Shown piece by piece: positions 24,174 to 54,840 of a stretch of DNA of 60,719 nt (positions are counted from its first letter, which is position 1; the number at the start of each line of letters is the position of its first letter). Below the pieces are notes generated by a model. The model was not told the DNA's origin and made no database searches. It saw only the letters and a program-made list of their open reading frames with translations. The translations under genes were made by a program, and so were the position numbers. The stretch spans positions 1-60,719 of the forward strand of contig CALUWN010000012.1 of NCBI GenBank assembly GCA_944324495.1, in the 5' to 3' direction. Source of the DNA: an uncultured Mucispirillum sp. (GTDB taxonomy: Bacteria > Chrysiogenota > Deferribacteres > Deferribacterales > Mucispirillaceae).

Positions 24174-24473
24174 TCAGTTTACAATATAATATAATTTGTA
24201 ATCACTACCAAAGCCTGTATAATAAACATCTGATGTGCTTTCTGTATCAAATATTAAAGCACCTTTAACACCTTTATATTTAAAACTTTCAGTCATATCT
24301 ATATTTGCATCACATCTTAAACCTTGAAAAATAACATTATTATTTACTGATAAATCCATATAAGTTTTGCTATTTAAAGAGCGTATTTTTATTCTTAAAT
24401 TTTCATCAGCAATAACTGTGGTTATTTCAAAATTTGGTGTATTCCGTGGTAAACTTATTTCATAAATAATCAT
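24174..24473 (-). CDS. Baseplate plug-like small protein
   Basis: A 99-residue beta-rich protein starting MIIYEISLPRNTPNFEITTV. It resembles the small baseplate-plug proteins found between the Dit-like protein and the hub in contractile phages; the assignment is from position and pattern only. Its first 18 codons are duplicated in altered form at 24649-24702, with two structured repeats in between, so this copy is the complete one. A GAGAG site precedes the ATG. Confidence 0.6.
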   Translation of the reverse strand: MIIYEISLPRNTPNFEITTVIADENLRIKIRSLNSKTYMDLSVNNNVIFQGLRCDANIDMTESFKYKGVKGALIFDTESTSDVYYTGFGSDYKLYYIVN

Positions 24474-24480
24474 AATCTCT

Positions 24481-24647
24481 CACTAAGCCACACGATGTGG
24501 CGTCTTTAGTAAGGGTTAAGGGGAGCGTTTTTTTGCGACGCAAGGACTTTCCGACCAAATCGGGAGGAAATATAAGTCCGTAGCTGGACGTTTCCCCGTA
24601 AACCCGCTAAATAAAAAATTCACGGAAGAATTTTTTATTATATTTAA
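24481..24647 (+). repeat. Family E repeat with a family B repeat nested in its loop
   Basis: The outer E parts are a CCAC/GTGG hairpin, CTTTAGTAAGGGTT, then AAACCCGCTAAAT and a hairpin AAAAATT/AATTTTT around the loop CACGGA. Inside the GGGG/CCCC stem lies a B element (24520-24597): GCGACG, the stem GGACTT/AAGTCC, and the inner hairpin TTCC-CGACCAAATCG-GGAGGAA. This fills the gap between a truncated gene copy and its full copy. Confidence 0.7.
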
Positions 24648-24703: not shown

Positions 24704-25258
24704 TCAATTTACCCCAGTAATCATATTTACAAGCTTCAGAGCAAGAGTTTTATTATCTTTAACTTCTTTTGCCTGAACCTGACCTAATAAACTGGTTTCA
24801 GCATCCTGCACGCTGGCAGCTTGTTCTGCAGTAATAGCAGTAGTTAATGGCATTACAAATGGTATCTGTTGCATTTCTATTTGTAGCTTATAGCTAGAAG
24901 CATTATCTGCATTAGATACTTTAGATAGTGATAAAAACTGCATATTATCATACACGCCACCCATATAATATACAGTAAATAACTGATTAGCTTTCAATGC
25001 ACTATCTATCATTTGTAACACAAGCTGGTATTTCATAATGGACACATAGCCATTTAATGACAATTTAGCAGGCGTAGACCAAATTGTATCACTAATTTTC
25101 ATGTTCGCATCTACTGGGTGCTGTGGTATCTCCCACACACAATCTTCTTTATCTTCAGTAAATATTATAGGAAATATTACACCATTATTTTCAATTCTAA
25201 TCGCTCTTCTAATAGATGCTATTGATTGCAGCGAAAACCGTGGTAATGTAAAAGGCAT
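24704..25258 (-). CDS. Dit-like/baseplate distal tail protein
   Basis: A 184-residue protein after the tape measure gene. The pattern VWEIPQHPVDANMKISDTIWSTPAKLSLNGYVSI (about 42-75), then FTVYYMGGVYDNMQFLSLSKVSNADNASSYKLQIEMQQI, matches the N-terminal domain of Dit-like tail proteins. These form the ring joining tube and hub. The start overlaps the tape measure stop (ATG at 25258) and a GGAG site precedes it. Mu gpN (DNA circularisation protein) occupies the comparable position. Confidence 0.7.
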   Translation of the reverse strand: MPFTLPRFSLQSIASIRRAIRIENNGVIFPIIFTEDKEDCVWEIPQHPVDANMKISDTIWSTPAKLSLNGYVSIMKYQLVLQMIDSALKANQLFTVYYMGGVYDNMQFLSLSKVSNADNASSYKLQIEMQQIPFVMPLTTAITAEQAASVQDAETSLLGQVQAKEVKDNKTLALKLVNMITGVN

Positions 25259-30393: not shown

Positions 30394-31152
30394 TTAATTT
30401 GTTTTTAAAAATCTATCTACAAAAGTTGTATATGCGGGGTTAGTTTTTAATATGCCTACTTCATTAACTTCAACCACTACTTTTTTTAAAACAGTATCGC
30501 TTAATTCAACTTTGCTCATTTTTGTAATAAATATCTCAAACTGTGCAATCTGCACCCATTTTTTGTATGTATTAAAATCTGCTTGAAAAGTTATATCAGA
30601 CCATATAGGCATAAGTTCATATTTATAATTATTAAAAAATAAATCTCTTGCTTGTGAGCTTTTTAAATATGTTTGCAGTGTTTCAGCTATATCAAAAGCA
30701 GACATATTATCAGTGTTCCATTCTATAGTTTTATAAATATCTACTTCAAAACACACTTCAGTTACTGCATCAATAAGCACTGTAAGGGGACTTCCAAAGC
30801 CAGCCCCCTTTCCATCTTCCCCCGCTTTTAATGTTGTTGCTCCAAATTTGTGTGAAAATTCTCCGCAACACAAATCATCTTGATTTAGTAACCGCTCGCC
30901 AGCTAAAGCACAGGATGTGCTGTCGCTTGCGTAAGGGTTGAGGGGTTTCCCCGAAAACCCGTTTTTTACTAAATCCACGGATGGATTTAGTAATCTTTCT
31001 CCTGATAATGTTAAGTTTTTTATTTTTTTGGGTGCAAATGTTACCACGCCACCATCTACATCTGCTTCTATATCTTGGTATGGATATAATGCTTTAAACG
31101 GCTGCACAATATCACTGACAATATTGTATATTGATGCAATCATTTCTTTCAT
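30394..31152 (-). CDS. Neck/tail terminator-like protein with an in-frame repeat insertion
   Basis: A 252-residue protein upstream of the sheath gene, matching LIC12616-type neck proteins by position. The conserved part runs from AVTEVCFEVDIYKTIEWNTD to KVVVEVNEVGILKTNP. Near residues 48-85 a family E repeat is inserted in frame (DNA 30907-30991). Around it, gene-like phrases recur: LSGERLLNPSVDL before and LAGERLLNQDD after. The inserted segment has low-complexity wording (NGFSGKPLNPYASDSTSC) and probably forms a surface loop. AGGAG lies 5 bases before the ATG. Confidence 0.65.
   Translation of the reverse strand: MKEMIASIYNIVSDIVQPFKALYPYQDIEADVDGGVVTFAPKKIKNLTLSGERLLNPSVDLVKNGFSGKPLNPYASDSTSCALAGERLLNQDDLCCGEFSHKFGATTLKAGEDGKGAGFGSPLTVLIDAVTEVCFEVDIYKTIEWNTDNMSAFDIAETLQTYLKSSQARDLFFNNYKYELMPIWSDITFQADFNTYKKWVQIAQFEIFITKMSKVELSDTVLKKVVVEVNEVGILKTNPAYTTFVDRFLKTN
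30907..30991 (+). repeat. Family E repeat inserted in frame in the neck gene
   Basis: AGCAC/GTGCT hairpin, GTAAGGGTTGAGGGG pairing with CCCC and AACCC, then ACTAAATC-CACGGATG-GATTTAGT. About 27 bases of gene sequence (GATTTAGTAA plus related bases) occur on both sides, at 30884 and 30983. Confidence 0.7.
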
Positions 31153-43162: not shown

Positions 43163-43396
43163 TTTTTCAAAGCATTTAATAGCTGCTTCTAAACTCTTTA
43201 CATATGCCACTAAATCCGCAATATTCAGCATCAGTATTGCTGTATTTTTTTCACTGCCAATATGGCTTTTATTATCAAGCTGTTTTAACTCCACCCGTGC
43301 AGGCACAGCACACTGTTTATTTTTTACTATCACTTGCGAGTGTGAACTGCACCCAGTAAGAATTAATACTATTAATAGCATAACTACTTTTTTCAT
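43157..43396 (-). CDS. Rz1-like outer-membrane spanin lipoprotein
   Basis: A 79-residue lipoprotein. The signal MKKVVMLLIVLILTGCSS has a lipobox LTGC with Cys at residue 16, followed by Ser-Ser, which favours the outer membrane. The remaining part is mostly helical. It starts inside the Rz-like gene in another frame, the classic nested Rz/Rz1 layout. It pairs with the inner-membrane spanin to fuse membranes at lysis. Confidence 0.78.
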   Translation of the reverse strand: MKKVVMLLIVLILTGCSSHSQVIVKNKQCAVPARVELKQLDNKSHIGSEKNTAILMLNIADLVAYVKSLEAAIKCFEKR

Positions 43397-43865
43397 AACT
43401 TATCACCTTTGATAGCACTGGGGCGGTGCGGTCTTCCGCCCCAGCTTTTGAGCCATTGTGCAAATTTATTTCGGAGGGGAGCGTTTCCCAGCGACGGCTG
43501 CCTGTTTCCCGACCGAGTAGGGAGGAATCAGAAACAGCACAGGCTGGAAGTTGTGGGAAAAATGCCCCATTTTTACCAACATTATAAGTAGGCTCAATAC
43601 TTAAAAATGTTAGTAAATTCTCTCTTGCTTTTATCCTTTCATTACATATACTTTCTGCTTCTAATACCTGCTCTTGCAGGCTTGCAATATTTTTATCTAT
43701 TTCAGTAATAGCAGCATCTCTTAACTTTATTATTTCAGTAAGCCTTGCATTTTCTTTTGTAAGTGTATTATTACTTGCTTTTTCAATACCTAAAAGCACA
43801 GATAAAACCACCAGCATAGCAAAAAGAAAAAGTATTATATATTTACTTAACACATTTATATTCAT
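43317..43865 (-). CDS. Rz-like inner-membrane spanin with an in-frame repeat
   Basis: About 182 residues. One N-terminal membrane helix (about 5-25) is followed by a periplasmic coiled coil (NNTLTKENARLTEIIKLRDAAITEIDKNIASLQEQVLEAESICNERIKA). From about residue 97 to 130 the coding sequence passes through a family B repeat (PQLPACAVSDSSLLGRETGS), which is not spanin-like. The C-terminus overlaps Rz1. The repeat probably lengthened the periplasmic domain or replaced its end, so function is uncertain. An ATG at 43865 follows AAGGA. Confidence 0.68.
   Translation of the reverse strand: MNINVLSKYIILFLFAMLVVLSVLLGIEKASNNTLTKENARLTEIIKLRDAAITEIDKNIASLQEQVLEAESICNERIKARENLLTFLSIEPTYNVGKNGAFFPQLPACAVSDSSLLGRETGSRRWETLPSEINLHNGSKAGAEDRTAPVLSKVISYEKSSYAINSINSYWVQFTLASDSKK
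43476..43568 (+). repeat. Family B structured repeat in the Rz gene
   Basis: Outer pairs GGGG and TTTCCCA with TGGGAAA and CCCC; GCGACGGCTGCC; stem TGTTTC/GAAACA; inner CCGACCGAGTAGGGAGGAA; GCACAGGCTGGAAG. It is nearly the same as the copy at 54115 apart from the stems, which are replaced on both sides. Confidence 0.8.
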
Positions 43866-43889
43866 GCTTAACAAATCCTTTTTATCTAT

Positions 43890-48792: not shown

Positions 48793-48910
48793 TAATATCT
48801 TTTGCCTTTACTCGTTGTTGTTTTTAAATCTGCCTGCGGTCATTTACTTATTTTGTAAACTCCCTTGTCAGATTTAAAAGCCGCCTAGATTAAAGCCAAA
48901 ATCTTATTAT
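48791..48910 (-). repeat. Family A structured repeat, copy 8 (inverted)
   Basis: The only copy in reverse orientation. On the minus strand: AATAAGATTTTGGCTTTAATC against AAAGGCAAAAGATATT; TAGGCGGCTT; second stem TTTAAATCTG/CAGATTTAAA; hairpin GTTTAC/GTAAAT; CAACAACGAG. Confidence 0.8.
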
Positions 48911-48933
48911 TATTTAATATTATGGAGTGTCAA

Positions 48934-49175: not shown

Positions 49176-50597
49176 ATGAGTAAACAAACATACAAATTTG
49201 AAATACTAAAAAAAGATAACTACCATATCTATTATGAAGATAGAGATGATAATACAGGTGGTGCTATTGTTTATAAAAATTTAAAAAATAATGAATTTTT
49301 TGAGCGGTCTGGAAAAATAGAAAATTTAATAGATTTTTATAATTCTTGTGAAATGGGTATTATAAATTTTTGGCATTTACTACCTTTTGGTAAAAATAAA
49401 AATGATAAAAATAAACTTATTCTTCTTACAGATATTAAATCATTGCATGCAGACTTAAATGAAAAAGACTCATTCAGTGAAAATCAGGCTCAGAGTGACA
49501 CCACCACCCCTGTTATTCTGACGAGCGGTGTTTGCGAGGACACTTTTTCCCGACCAAATCGGGAGGAAATAGAAAAAGTGGCTAGACCGAGCAGCGAAGA
49601 ATCTCAAATTGACACTTATAAGCTTGAAGCAGAACATCAAGCAGCCACTGCCATAGTAGAAGCAAACATGGCAGAATTCCATGCAGAACAGCAGGAAATC
49701 AAAGAAAAAGAGCGAGAAGAAAGGGAAGCACTTATTGCTGAAGCATATAAAATGGCAGGCAAAATTGAAGCATTTAAATTTATTTCAAATTTTGCCGATG
49801 TCGGTAGTTTATCACTACTTAAAAAAATCAAAGAAAGTAAAGTGTATAAAGAAATGCCAACAATTAAAACATGGGATAATTATTGTAAATCTATAGGTTT
49901 ATCCGCATCAAAAGTTGATGAAGATTTAAATAATATTGCTACTTTTGGTGAAAAATTTATAACCGACGTCGGCAATTTTGGTTTGGGCTACCGTGAACTT
50001 CGCCAGCTAAAAAAACAAGTCAAAGCCGGCAATTTAGAAGTCCGAGATGCTGAAGTTATTATTGATGGTGAAGTAATACCATTAGACGATAAAGACGAAC
50101 TTCGTGATGCACTAGATACTCTTTTAAAATCTAAATATAAAGAGATAGAAGAAAAAGATAAACTTTTAAAAGATAAAGAGATGCAGCTTGAAGTTGTGAG
50201 AGAAACAAAAGATGGTTTTGCTCGTAGAATGGATAAAGCTGAAGAAGAAGCAGCTGCATATAAAAAGGAAATAGAAAAACTTAAAAATAATAAACCTAGC
50301 TTTAAAAATGTATCAGATGTTGATGCAGAAGATTTTCAGAAACTGCTTAATTTAGAACAGCAATGGAGAGATTTATTTAATGCTCTAAAAAATGCCACTG
50401 ATGATGATAACTTATCCAGTTTTAATAAGTCAATGCTTGGTGGTATTGTCGCCCAAATATTAATAATGCTTGATGATTTCCGCATGCAGTTAAACGGAAA
50501 ATCTGAATTTTATTTTCACGGTGTAGAAATAGATGAAGAAATGTTAAACGAGCAGATAAGCCCTAGCGATTTTCTAGCAATGCAGAACAAAAAATAA
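49176..50597 (+). CDS. Coiled-coil early protein with in-frame repeat insertion
   Basis: A 473-residue protein of unknown function. Residues 1-95 form a small domain. Residues about 114-143 are encoded by nested family C and B repeats (49515-49602), in frame. Residues 150-200 are a charged helix, and 215-290 hold a HTH-like stretch (TIKTWDNYCKSIGLSASKVDEDLNNIATFGEKF). A long coiled coil follows (KEIEEKDKLLKDKEMQLEVVRETKDGFARRMDKAEEEAAAYKKEIEKL). It is the last gene before the transposase, so a role in transposition control is possible. GGAG precedes the ATG. Confidence 0.65.
   Translation: MSKQTYKFEILKKDNYHIYYEDRDDNTGGAIVYKNLKNNEFFERSGKIENLIDFYNSCEMGIINFWHLLPFGKNKNDKNKLILLTDIKSLHADLNEKDSFSENQAQSDTTTPVILTSGVCEDTFSRPNREEIEKVARPSSEESQIDTYKLEAEHQAATAIVEANMAEFHAEQQEIKEKEREEREALIAEAYKMAGKIEAFKFISNFADVGSLSLLKKIKESKVYKEMPTIKTWDNYCKSIGLSASKVDEDLNNIATFGEKFITDVGNFGLGYRELRQLKKQVKAGNLEVRDAEVIIDGEVIPLDDKDELRDALDTLLKSKYKEIEEKDKLLKDKEMQLEVVRETKDGFARRMDKAEEEAAAYKKEIEKLKNNKPSFKNVSDVDAEDFQKLLNLEQQWRDLFNALKNATDDDNLSSFNKSMLGGIVAQILIMLDDFRMQLNGKSEFYFHGVEIDEEMLNEQISPSDFLAMQNKK
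49515..49602 (+). repeat. Family B repeat nested in a family C repeat, in frame in a coding gene
   Basis: Outer ATTCTGACGAGC with GCAGCGAAGAATCT (family C), then stem CACTTTTT/AAAAAGTG and inner TTCCCGACCAAATCGGGAGGAA split by its loop (family B). It has no stop codon in the host gene frame. Confidence 0.75.
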
Positions 50598-50607
50598 ACT
50601 TATACAT

Positions 50608-50640
50608 TGTCATTCTGAGCCTTTAGGCGAAGAATCTAAA
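50608..50640 (+). repeat. Family C hairpin repeat before the transposase gene
   Basis: CATTCTGAGCC, loop TTTA, GGCGAAGAATCTAAA. It lies in the 55-base gap upstream of the transposase binding site. Confidence 0.65.
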
Positions 50641-50652
50641 AAGGATATAAAA

Positions 50653-52473
50653 ATGGATAAAGAAACAACTATAATTTTAGAAAAATTAAATAATACCCCT
50701 GATGAGCTTATTACTGCTACAGTAAAAGAGTTATCACATGAGCTTAATCTATCAGTTGCTTCTATCTGGCGAAAAGCTAATAAAGCAGGCTTTCGTGTTC
50801 GCAAAGAGCGTTCAGATAAAAATAAAACTGTAATAAGCGAAGATGTAATAAATTATATTGCTTCAAGGGTATTAATATCAAGGCGAAGAAATAAGCAGTT
50901 TACTAACTTTGTAAAAAAAGCCTATGAAGATTATGAAAAAGAACATGGCAAAATAGAAGCAGGATACGAGCGGGTATGTGCAATTTTAAGACAGCGAGGG
51001 CTTGATAAAGAAAGCCTTAATCTTCCTACACCTGCACTCAAACTGTTTAGTTTACACCCTAACCATGTGCATCTTTTTGATGTTACAAACTGCCTGCAGT
51101 GGCATTTTAAAAATAAAGGCGGTTTAAGTGAGAGAGATGTCGAAAAAATATTTTATCAAAATAAAGTGGTGAAAGAAGCTAAAAAAATCAAACAAGAACT
51201 TTTAAGGTTTGTTTTAATAGACCATAAAAGTGGAGCATTTTTCTTTTGGTATTATTACACATCAGGCGAAAAAGCAAGCGACGGTTTAGATTTTTTCAGC
51301 CGTGCTTGGGGAGATAAAAAAGAACTTATAAAAAATACATTAGGTATATCTGATTATAATGGTAAATATCAGTTTCAAGGTTTGCCTCGTCTTTTATATT
51401 CAGATAAAGGCTCTATTTTAAAAAATAAAGCAATGCTTAATATGATGGCTTGTCTTGGAGTAGAAGTGCAAACCCATGAAGCAGGTAATCCGCGGGCAAA
51501 AGGTGCTGTTGAAGGTTTAATGCGGATAATAGGTTATGATTTTGAAAGTGATTTAAAAACTCATAATATTCAAGGCATAGAAGCATTAAACGCTTTTGCT
51601 CTTAACTGGTGCTTACAAAGAAATGAAAAGGCAGCTTTTAGAGGGGGCACTATTTCCCGAATAGATTTCTGGCGGAAAATAAAAGCGTCGGAGCTTATTT
51701 TATCCCCTGATTATGAAGTGTTTAAAAAGTTATATCATAAACCAGAAGTAACTAGGGTTTGCACTGTGCAGGGTATTATTAATTTTGAAGGCAGAAAGTA
51801 TCAGTGCCCAGATACTAATGCTTATGGCAAAACTGTGCTTATCAAAGTTAATGCTTTAGAATACCCTGCCATAGATATTCATTTTAATGGCTATGTATAT
51901 AAATCTGAGCCGCTTGAAGTAGATGAATATAATAACTTAATACTTCCTAATATGGCTACCTTTGGAAGCTATAATGCACTTAAAAAGACAGAATTACAGC
52001 ATAAAAAGGAAGAGTTAGAGCAGTTTGCAACTGAAAAATGGCAAGTTGAATATAAAGGTAAAAAAGATAAAAAAATCGCTTTGCCTAGTGATAATACACC
52101 AAAAGCTGAAATAGAAGTAAAGCAGGATAATATTGCATATCTGCCAAAAGCTGGCAAGCAGGCAGAAGTCAAAGACAGCAGTGAGCCAGTAACTACTGCA
52201 CCAGTTGAAACACATATTATTCATAACTACGCATATGTCACTCAGAGCGATAGCGAAGAGTCTAAAAAGGAAGGGTTAAAAAAGCCAGTTCTTATTCCTT
52301 TAATGCAGGCAATAGATTTAGTTATATCAGAATATGGCAAAATATCGCCTTTAATGAATAAGAATTTAAAAACATTATACCCAGAAGGTGTGCCACAAGA
52401 AATGACTGCAACAGATATTTATAATGCCATAAATAAACCTTTTATTGAGGTGGATAATGAAAAACTTGCATGA
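50653..52473 (+). CDS. Mu-type DDE transposase A
   Basis: A 606-residue transposase that cuts and joins the prophage ends. N-terminal DNA-binding helices (ATVKELSHELNLSVASIWRKANKAGFRVRKE) come first. The catalytic core has Asp in HVHLFDVTNCLQWHF (about residue 141), Asp in RLLYSDKGSI (about 255) and Glu in RAKGAVEGLMRIIGYDFES (about 290). A Mu-transposase beta-barrel domain follows (VCTVQGIINFEGRKYQCPDTNAYGKTVLIKV). A family C-like repeat adds YVTQSDSEESKKEG near residue 530. AAGGA precedes the ATG. The end motifs at 17453 and 55283 are its likely targets. Confidence 0.92.
   Translation: MDKETTIILEKLNNTPDELITATVKELSHELNLSVASIWRKANKAGFRVRKERSDKNKTVISEDVINYIASRVLISRRRNKQFTNFVKKAYEDYEKEHGKIEAGYERVCAILRQRGLDKESLNLPTPALKLFSLHPNHVHLFDVTNCLQWHFKNKGGLSERDVEKIFYQNKVVKEAKKIKQELLRFVLIDHKSGAFFFWYYYTSGEKASDGLDFFSRAWGDKKELIKNTLGISDYNGKYQFQGLPRLLYSDKGSILKNKAMLNMMACLGVEVQTHEAGNPRAKGAVEGLMRIIGYDFESDLKTHNIQGIEALNAFALNWCLQRNEKAAFRGGTISRIDFWRKIKASELILSPDYEVFKKLYHKPEVTRVCTVQGIINFEGRKYQCPDTNAYGKTVLIKVNALEYPAIDIHFNGYVYKSEPLEVDEYNNLILPNMATFGSYNALKKTELQHKKEELEQFATEKWQVEYKGKKDKKIALPSDNTPKAEIEVKQDNIAYLPKAGKQAEVKDSSEPVTTAPVETHIIHNYAYVTQSDSEESKKEGLKKPVLIPLMQAIDLVISEYGKISPLMNKNLKTLYPEGVPQEMTATDIYNAINKPFIEVDNEKLA
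52236..52270 (+). repeat. Family C repeat in frame in the transposase gene
   Basis: TGTCACTCAGAGCGATAGCG then AAGAGTCTAAAAAGG, a degenerate CATTCTGAGC-GCGAAGAATCT element, lies in the linker before the C-terminal B-interaction region. Confidence 0.55.
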
Positions 52474-53550: not shown

Positions 53551-54072
53551 ATGTATGTAAAATTATCAGATATTGAGCAGGCAGCAAGAGATTTCTCTGC
53601 AAAAAGCAAAACTTTAAGGAACTATCATGAACAATTAAACAGTGAGATAGATGCTATTAAATCTAAATATTTAGAAGATATTAAAACAGCATCAGTGGAA
53701 GCTGGTGAAAGCTATCAAATGCTTTTAACTCTTATTAATGACGCATCAGATTTGTTTAAAGATAAAAAATCTATGACAGTTTCAGGTGTTAAATTTGGCT
53801 TTCAAAAAAAGAAAGGAAAGTTAGAAATTATTAATGAAGATGTTACAATATCTAAATTAAAAGAGCTTTATGGTGATAATGCAGTTCTTTATATTAATAC
53901 AAAATCATCTGTTGTAAAAAAAGCTTTAGATAATTTGCCTGCATCTGACTTGAAAAAATTAGGTGTTAATATAGTGCAGGATACAGATGTTGCTTTTGTT
54001 AAATTAACTGATGATGAAGTGCAAAAATTAATAGAAGCAATGATAAAAGAAAGTGCAAAGGTGGCAGAATGA
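53551..54072 (+). CDS. Gam-like host-nuclease inhibitor
   Basis: A 173-residue protein that binds double-stranded DNA ends and protects them from exonucleases, related to Ku. The N-terminal coiled coil is LSDIEQAARDFSAKSKTLRNYHEQLNSEIDAIKSKYLED. The core has KKSMTVSGVKFGFQKKKGKLEIINEDVTISKLKELYGDNAVLYINTKSSVVKKAL, as in Mu Gam. GAGG lies 6 bases before ATG 53551; a GTG at 53539 would precede it. It is coupled to the small membrane gene downstream. Confidence 0.87.
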   Translation: MYVKLSDIEQAARDFSAKSKTLRNYHEQLNSEIDAIKSKYLEDIKTASVEAGESYQMLLTLINDASDLFKDKKSMTVSGVKFGFQKKKGKLEIINEDVTISKLKELYGDNAVLYINTKSSVVKKALDNLPASDLKKLGVNIVQDTDVAFVKLTDDEVQKLIEAMIKESAKVAE

Positions 54073-54272
54073 TTGTAAAGTTTTTTCCTTTGCTGCTTAT
54101 GATATTAGATTTATGTGCCGCAGGTGAGCATAGCGAAGACTGCCAAATTCCCTCCCGAATAGGAAGGAATCAGAATTTGCACAGGCTGGAAGTTTACCTG
54201 TGGCACGGTGACATCAGGCATTTTATTTACTGGGTTGCAGCTGCCACATTAACTGCAACAGTTACATTTTAA
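54069..54272 (+). CDS. Small conserved Mu-type membrane protein with repeat insertion
   Basis: A 67-residue protein, coupled to Gam (ATGA). Leaving out the family B repeat gives a natural short membrane protein: FFPLLLMILDLCAA before and WHGDIRHFIYWVAAATLTAT after, a layout usual between Gam and GemA in Mu-like phages. The inserted part adds about 25 polar residues (SEDCQIPSRIGRNQNLHRLE) without breaking the frame. Function is unknown. Confidence 0.7.
   Translation: MIVKFFPLLLMILDLCAAGEHSEDCQIPSRIGRNQNLHRLEVYLWHGDIRHFIYWVAAATLTATVTF
54115..54206 (+). repeat. Family B structured repeat inside a small membrane gene
   Basis: Outer stem GTGCC.CAGGT with ACCTG.GGCAC; GCGAAGACTGCC; stem AAATTC/GAATTT; inner CCTCCCGAATAGGAAGGAA; GCACAGGCTGGAAG. 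Confidence 0.8.
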
Positions 54273-54282
54273 TAGGTGCTAT

Positions 54283-54840
54283 ATGAAAAAAATGGCAGAT
54301 AAAAAACAGATACAATTAATTCATGTTGCTAAACAGCAGCTTGCTTTAGATGATGAAACTTACAGAGAAACACTAAAATATAGATATAATGTAACATCTG
54401 CTAAAAATTTAACTTATAACCAGGCAAGTAATTTTATTGGTTTTTTATCAGAAAAAGGCTTTAAATTTAAAAAGAAAGCTAAACCTTTAAAAGCAAAAAA
54501 AGCTGATAATGTAATAGAACTTGCTACTACCCGCCAGCATAAATTAATTGAAGTTCTTAAAAACAATATAGTTTGGAAAGTTGAAAATGGTTATGAACTT
54601 TACATTCAAAAAAGGCTTAAAATCAATAAAGTAATAACAAAAGCTGATGCATTTAAAGTGATTAATGCACTAAAAGGTATACTTGGCATTAATACTAAAA
54701 TTATTGAATTGCAAGCATTGCCATTTCCTTGGAATCCTGAAATAAAATGGTTTAACAAACATGGATGGGCTTGGTTCTTTGATATTTCAAAATGTAAGCT
54801 TATCAAACTAAATATCCACGGGGAGGAAATTGATGGATAA
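54283..54840 (+). CDS. GemA-like regulatory protein
   Basis: A 185-residue protein. The N-terminal region (KKQIQLIHVAKQQLALDDETYRETLKYRYNVTSAKNLTYNQASNFIGFLSEKGFKFK) is the GemA/DUF1018 signature. In Mu, GemA modulates host gene expression and DNA topology. It precedes Mor and overlaps it, as in Mu. An AGGTG site precedes the ATG. Confidence 0.88.
   Translation: MKKMADKKQIQLIHVAKQQLALDDETYRETLKYRYNVTSAKNLTYNQASNFIGFLSEKGFKFKKKAKPLKAKKADNVIELATTRQHKLIEVLKNNIVWKVENGYELYIQKRLKINKVITKADAFKVINALKGILGINTKIIELQALPFPWNPEIKWFNKHGWAWFFDISKCKLIKLNIHGEEIDG

Follow-up and report, generated by a model that had tools for sequence, protein, structure and literature searches.

A short palindromic element inserted in frame in a small gene of a Mu-like prophage of Mucispirillum

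The best-known cases of in-frame palindromic selfish DNA come from Rickettsia and Wolbachia, and to our knowledge the mechanism by which these palindromes spread is still open. The Rickettsia palindromic elements (RPE) and the palindromic elements of Wolbachia are described as short, genus-wide and often located in protein genes, where they leave the frame intact (PMC10969869, PMC3767692). The REPs of E. coli have a conserved mismatch bulge in their stem, as outlined in PMC8266576, and some insertion sequences are described to insert into REP palindromes (PMC1525189). Among the literature matches listed for in-frame palindromes, Mucispirillum repeats and loop insertion, no title or abstract opening dealt with the family reported below, and the part of the M. 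schaedleri genome paper considered here mentions mobile elements just by a pointer to its Text S1 (PMC5285517).

The locus compared with these systems lies in the gam-gemA interval of a Mu-like prophage from an uncultured Mucispirillum. The whole stretch of DNA that was analysed, 60,719 nt in length, is called the window in the following.

Filled and empty alleles between gam and gemA

The gene under study is an ORF of 67 codons (54069-54272, + strand) encoding a small hydrophobic protein. Its start codon overlaps the stop codon of the upstream gene (ATGA), which encodes a Mu Gam-like protein (53551-54072, +; PF07352, E 2.1e-9; phrog_491, E 2.2e-15). The GemA gene is located downstream (54283-54840, +; PF06252, E 7.4e-14). 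We searched for Gam in 146 genomes including that of the window, and obtained matches in ten of them. Six of the loci are close orthologs. Two are filled, namely the window itself (G000) and G006 (L011), and four are empty with a gene of 45 codons (G008, L010; G002, L012; G003, L013; G004, L014). The Gam proteins of filled and empty orthologs are 95% or 77% identical.

Comparison of the filled with the empty alleles defines an inserted palindromic element of 66 nt net at 54126-54191 (+), with an ambiguity of one base to the right. It encodes EHSEDCQIPSRIGRNQNLHRLE, corresponding to 22 codons which are free of stops in the frame used. The insert was initially annotated as about 90 bases long, an extent that took in bases of the gene itself to the left and to the right. 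GCAGGT and GTTTACCTG, which flank the insert, are native gene bases found in all four empty alleles, the left native flank reading GCCACA in the empty allele of G003. Consequently the joined product ...DLCAAWHGDI... that had been proposed is not the one encoded by the empty alleles; these give ...DLCAAGVYLWHGDIRHF... and keep ...AAGVYLWHG.... The two filled alleles differ by one substitution in the insert, which changes the residue (S/A). At the farther Gam loci of the genus and the family (L015, L019-L021) a different sequence is found at the place of the insert. Insertion is simpler than loss, since outgroup alleles are empty.

The insert peptide is hydrophilic (mean Kyte-Doolittle value -1.47) and is flanked by two hydrophobic segments of the 67-aa protein, in agreement with the initial annotation, which had placed the element between two hydrophobic parts. 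Homologs with equally long but unrelated loops at this place had been named as a possible refutation; the four orthologous empty alleles are without any loop. The description of the remaining protein as typical for Mu-like phages found no backing: the 45-aa empty form had no match in PHROGs or Pfam, none in annotated phages (tblastn, E<=1) and none in viral contigs, although a query as short as this one has low power. With the Gam protein as query no relative was found in the viral contigs either.

In the empty alleles the gene contains an 11-bp hairpin of its own, GTGCTGCAGGT-GTTT-ACCTGTGGCAC, and the element is located at the tip of this hairpin. In the window its left arm, GTGCCGCAGGT, is found at 54115-54125 (+) and its right arm, ACCTGTGGCAC, at 54196-54206 (+), with the element in the loop. 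Folding of the filled stretch gave -41.3 kcal/mol (z -5.35) as RNA and -18.1 (z -3.40) as DNA.

The element family and its copies in genes

An alignment of 29 copies reveals two hairpins, a small one on the left and a long one on the right. In the copy under study the small hairpin, T-GA-GC-ATA-GC-GA-A, spans 54125-54137 (+) and holds tandem G.A between covarying pairs. The long hairpin (54144-54179, +) is formed by CAAATTC and GAATTTG and capped by a CCC..GGAAGG hairpin, which repeats the design of the left one (G.A/A.G tandem). Both are supported by RNAalifold and covariation, the small hairpin also by the copy alignment and the long one by folding. RNAalifold predicts 13 pairs, ten of which show changes on both sides. 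Paired cells amount to 97.9%, a share that drops to 81.0% after shuffling and to 18-47% when the partners are slid. As the copies are related, the shuffles overstate the significance of the covariation, but the slid-partner controls agree. The ends of the consensus, GGCGAG and GCTGGA, are not inverted repeats, and GTAG is absent from the consensus of the 29 aligned copies.

The covariance model R2 (72 positions) matches the element at 54123-54190 (+) with 79.3 bits and an E value of 3.1e-18 in the window, far above chance. A repeat copy in frame within the 67-aa ORF is confirmed. All ten Mucispirillum genomes contain matches to R2, between 2 and 40 per genome and at least 233 altogether, the latter being a lower bound because 150 candidates per genome were scored. 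A scan with stricter filters of 89 genomes outside the genus, five of them from the same family, gave no match. The element was also not matched in Rfam (E<=1 for the whole window, E<=10 locally), and a group I or II intron or another known catalytic RNA was rejected on this result. Neither annotated phages nor plasmids contained a match to the element. An exact 22-base pattern was found in one of the viral contigs, L068, which carries further copies, and another exact pattern was found in none of them. At several places (L128-L132, L148) near-identical copies are accompanied by near-identical flanks, indicating that larger repeats containing the element multiply as well.

Four copies are present in the window (R2, E 1e-13 or better). 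Three of them lie within genes and are all open, with net lengths of 66, 60 and 69 nt, one of them in antisense. Besides the copy described above, a second one (49520-49586, +) is in frame in a 473-aa ORF (49176-50597), with a net gain of 60 nt compared to the empty ortholog in G003. The third (43476-43548, +) is in frame and antisense in an Rz-spanin-like ORF (43317-43874, -) and adds 69 nt net, the ortholog being empty; the spanin label is due to a phrog_214 match (E 0.0015) scored on the ortholog L033. The fourth copy, an R2 match at 24520-24588 (+), is located between the ORFs 24174-24473 (-) and 24704-25258 (-). Genes were defined as ORFs with orthologous proteins, judged by eye, and many short repeat-made ORFs over empty sites were excluded. 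The frame is kept at each of the three independent positions in genes for which an empty ortholog exists, though three cases are few, and the remaining empty-site pairs have net lengths of 59-72 nt and include all residue classes.

A given sense frame is without stops in 29-52% of 148 distinct copies, and a given antisense frame in 64-76%. Since the frames of the element are often free of stops, insertions in genes should be tolerated more readily. Further open copies occur in a Mu F-like head-morphogenesis-like protein (L041) and in a tail-terminator-like protein (L068), both of which were found by their openness. At L041:369-517 and again at L068:2904-3053, two oppositely oriented elements are translated as parts of a single phage protein.

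The window contains other repeats too. A REP-like stretch, CAGAGCGATAGCGAAGAGTCT (52245-52268), is translated within the ORF of the Mu transposase A (50653-52473), and a similar one is found upstream of this gene (50607-50632). A second and longer repeat family (AAGGCGGC ... GGGAGTTTAC ... GTAAATGACC ... AACAACG) is spread across the prophage on both strands (27758, 32660, 33634, 40193, 43032, 44490 and 48354 on +; 48795-48922 on -) and was not matched by any Rfam model when the window was scanned. In the ortholog of the L024 protein (30397-31152, -) a different repeat-like insertion, GERLLNPSVDLVKNG..., is found where L024 has the palindromic element.

Insertion sites and candidate enzymes

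The list of copies omits places present twice as well as two partial matches and retains 165 distinct copies. Stretches resembling an empty site were found for 39 of these. Orthologous sites make up only part of them; many represent paralogous repeats, and a few arise artificially from tandem copies (e.g. L026). Clear empty sites include AATGC-GGAGA-GCATT, CAAATTC-AAGGA-CGAATTTG, AAAAATTC-ACGGAT-GAATTTTT and the REP-like CTGAGCCAAAGGCGAAG. In one further case, L139:12381-12511, the empty site is provided by a second family member, whose hairpin loop holds the element in reverse (L139:12415). Junctions are precise to 1-2 bases and the usual point is GG before A. Judged from the filled and empty junctions, not more than about two bases could have been duplicated in most cases. 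For this reason, and because the ends of the element are not inverted repeats, a classical MITE was rejected.

The two bases preceding CGAG vary with the base following GCT: G/G was counted 114 times, G/other never, A/G five times and A/other 21 times, the copies being non-independent. Such covarying end bases would be expected of an element that retains a trace of its target at either end. For the flank tests 63 independent copies out of the 165 were used, from which similar or short flanks had been dropped. The two flanks of a copy pair with each other more strongly than they do after permutation (two tests, 0 of 20,000 permutations in each). A minority drives this excess, as strong flank stems (score >=8) were found for nine of the 63 pairs, with 1.0 expected. 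In MFE folding of 20 empty sites, nine are placed in a hairpin loop, compared to 617 of 2000 random positions and 526 of 2000 GG|A positions (controls 22-31%). The gam-gemA site itself was scored outside a loop in this test, since its junction projects onto the last base pair of the stem. As the MFE loop test is just weakly positive, insertion into loops is a preference rather than a rule.

We also looked for enzymes which could mobilise the element. The HUH Y1 transposase (PF01797) was matched in six of the ten genus genomes and in none of G003, G005, G006 and G007, which carry 40, 2, 21 and 35 copies, respectively; G007 is a single-contig genome. No Y1 transposase was seen linked to a copy of the element. 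At the Y1 loci L052-L054 the left end has a GAGCATAGCGAAG-like hairpin, with no R2 match there among the matches listed. The Y1 transposase may act in trans, may have been lost or may be uninvolved. The IS110 transposase (PF01548) is missing among the matches of all ten genus genomes, and a bridge-RNA IS110 derivative was rejected on that ground.

Reading of the filled gene and relation to known systems

The locus very probably carries a non-autonomous and genus-private mobile palindrome, which was inserted once in the hairpin loop of the gene and would still be read through to yield a 67-aa product. The palindrome is REP-like, measures about 60-70 nt and occurs, within the set of genomes searched, in Mucispirillum alone; it entered the small gam-gemA gene of the Mu-like prophage at the loop of a hairpin. 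Exactly 66 stop-free nucleotides were added, so that the gene could be read straight through, and the product of 67 aa would contain a hydrophilic linker of 22 residues between two hydrophobic halves. We infer that this protein is made and that the linker is tolerated. The mobility of the element presumably involves a folded single strand, for instance by way of ssDNA, with an HUH transposase working in trans; covarying hairpins and hairpin-tip targets favour a route of that kind.

The initial annotation left open whether the element stays translated within genes or whether its part of the mRNA is skipped by bypassing or splicing. The orthologous empty alleles, the 22 stop-free codons and the two additional in-frame copies of the window argue for the former. 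Bypassing and splicing are both without support, because such inserts need not keep the frame, yet all three gene-borne copies of the window do. Should ribosomes hop the insert, as they do in phage T4 gene 60 or in the mitochondria of Magnusiomyces capitatus, the strong fold of the insert (RNA z -5.35) could serve as a hop-inducing structure, and many copies are bounded by GG...GGA, reminiscent of the matched GGA codons reported for T4 gene 60. Landing on the GGA of the right end (GCTGGA) would however lead to the wrong frame for the rest of the ORF, and one copy in the window is antisense and still open. The Magnusiomyces inserts disrupt the frame, as stated in PMC5009743, whereas here all three inserts in genes lack stops and have lengths that are multiples of three. 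Bypassing is thus very improbable. That the element acts as a small RNA which splices itself out or is removed by an enzyme, leaving an uninterrupted mature mRNA, is hardly credible. The conserved and covarying RNA-like fold with its two tandem G.A hairpins would suit such an RNA, but known group I and II introns are much longer than about 66 nt. Moreover, no known intron or ribozyme family was matched in Rfam, a reverse transcriptase (RVT_1) was found in none of the ten genus genomes, and copies are present in both orientations inside genes and in many cases between them.

The filled allele could also be a broken gene whose function is abolished and whose frame is open by luck, with decay pending in a defective prophage. 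Given the stop-free shares among the 148 copies, an open insert alone is not rare. Nevertheless, G000 and G006 share the same open allele, their inserts differing by a single substitution, the three gene-borne copies of the window all keep their frame, and the copies in L041 and L068 are open too, though these were found by their open frames. We regard a broken gene as unlikely. Plain translation through the insert appears to be the best and most economical reading and would fit all data at hand. A broader proposal, which we put forward as possible but doubtful, is that an undescribed class of palindromes copies itself as a folded single strand into hairpin tips of DNA or RNA, among them those of its own hairpins, without the usual enzymes in cis, and thereby repeatedly builds linkers in phage proteins.

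Several known systems share single features with the Mucispirillum element. Like the inserts of T4 gene 60 and Magnusiomyces it is a short structured insert in a coding gene, but it keeps the frame and has no stop, so that no hop is required. Insertion into palindromes is shared with the REP-targeting insertion sequences, as seen for the copy in the loop of a family copy (L139:12415). These are however complete insertion sequences that encode a transposase, while in Mucispirillum a small palindrome is what becomes inserted. REPs and REPINs with their TnpA-REP (RAYT) are likewise palindromic, numerous and non-autonomous, and use a folded single strand. They differ in that the Mucispirillum consensus is without a GTAG-like tag, that each element has two hairpins, that copies lie inside genes and that there is no constant Y1 partner (six of ten genomes).

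In its behaviour the element appears closest to the RPE, as it is multicopy in one genus and resides in protein genes without breaking the frame; by length, fold and host as described it would be a different family. Its net length is 59-72 nt compared to 100-150 nt for the RPE, its host belongs to another phylum and its two-hairpin fold with G.A pairs is distinct. Furthermore it shows an excess of insertions in hairpin loops, and the gene-borne copies were seen mainly in prophages. The Mucispirillum system could be used to measure how frequently new protein segments originate from selfish DNA, which in this case concerns mostly prophage genes. Numerous copies in an unrelated genus, together with clean empty sites, a surplus of loop targets and end bases varying with the target, would make the hunt for the enzyme tractable. 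The element looks like a second, independent instance of the Rickettsia-type habit of in-frame palindromes.
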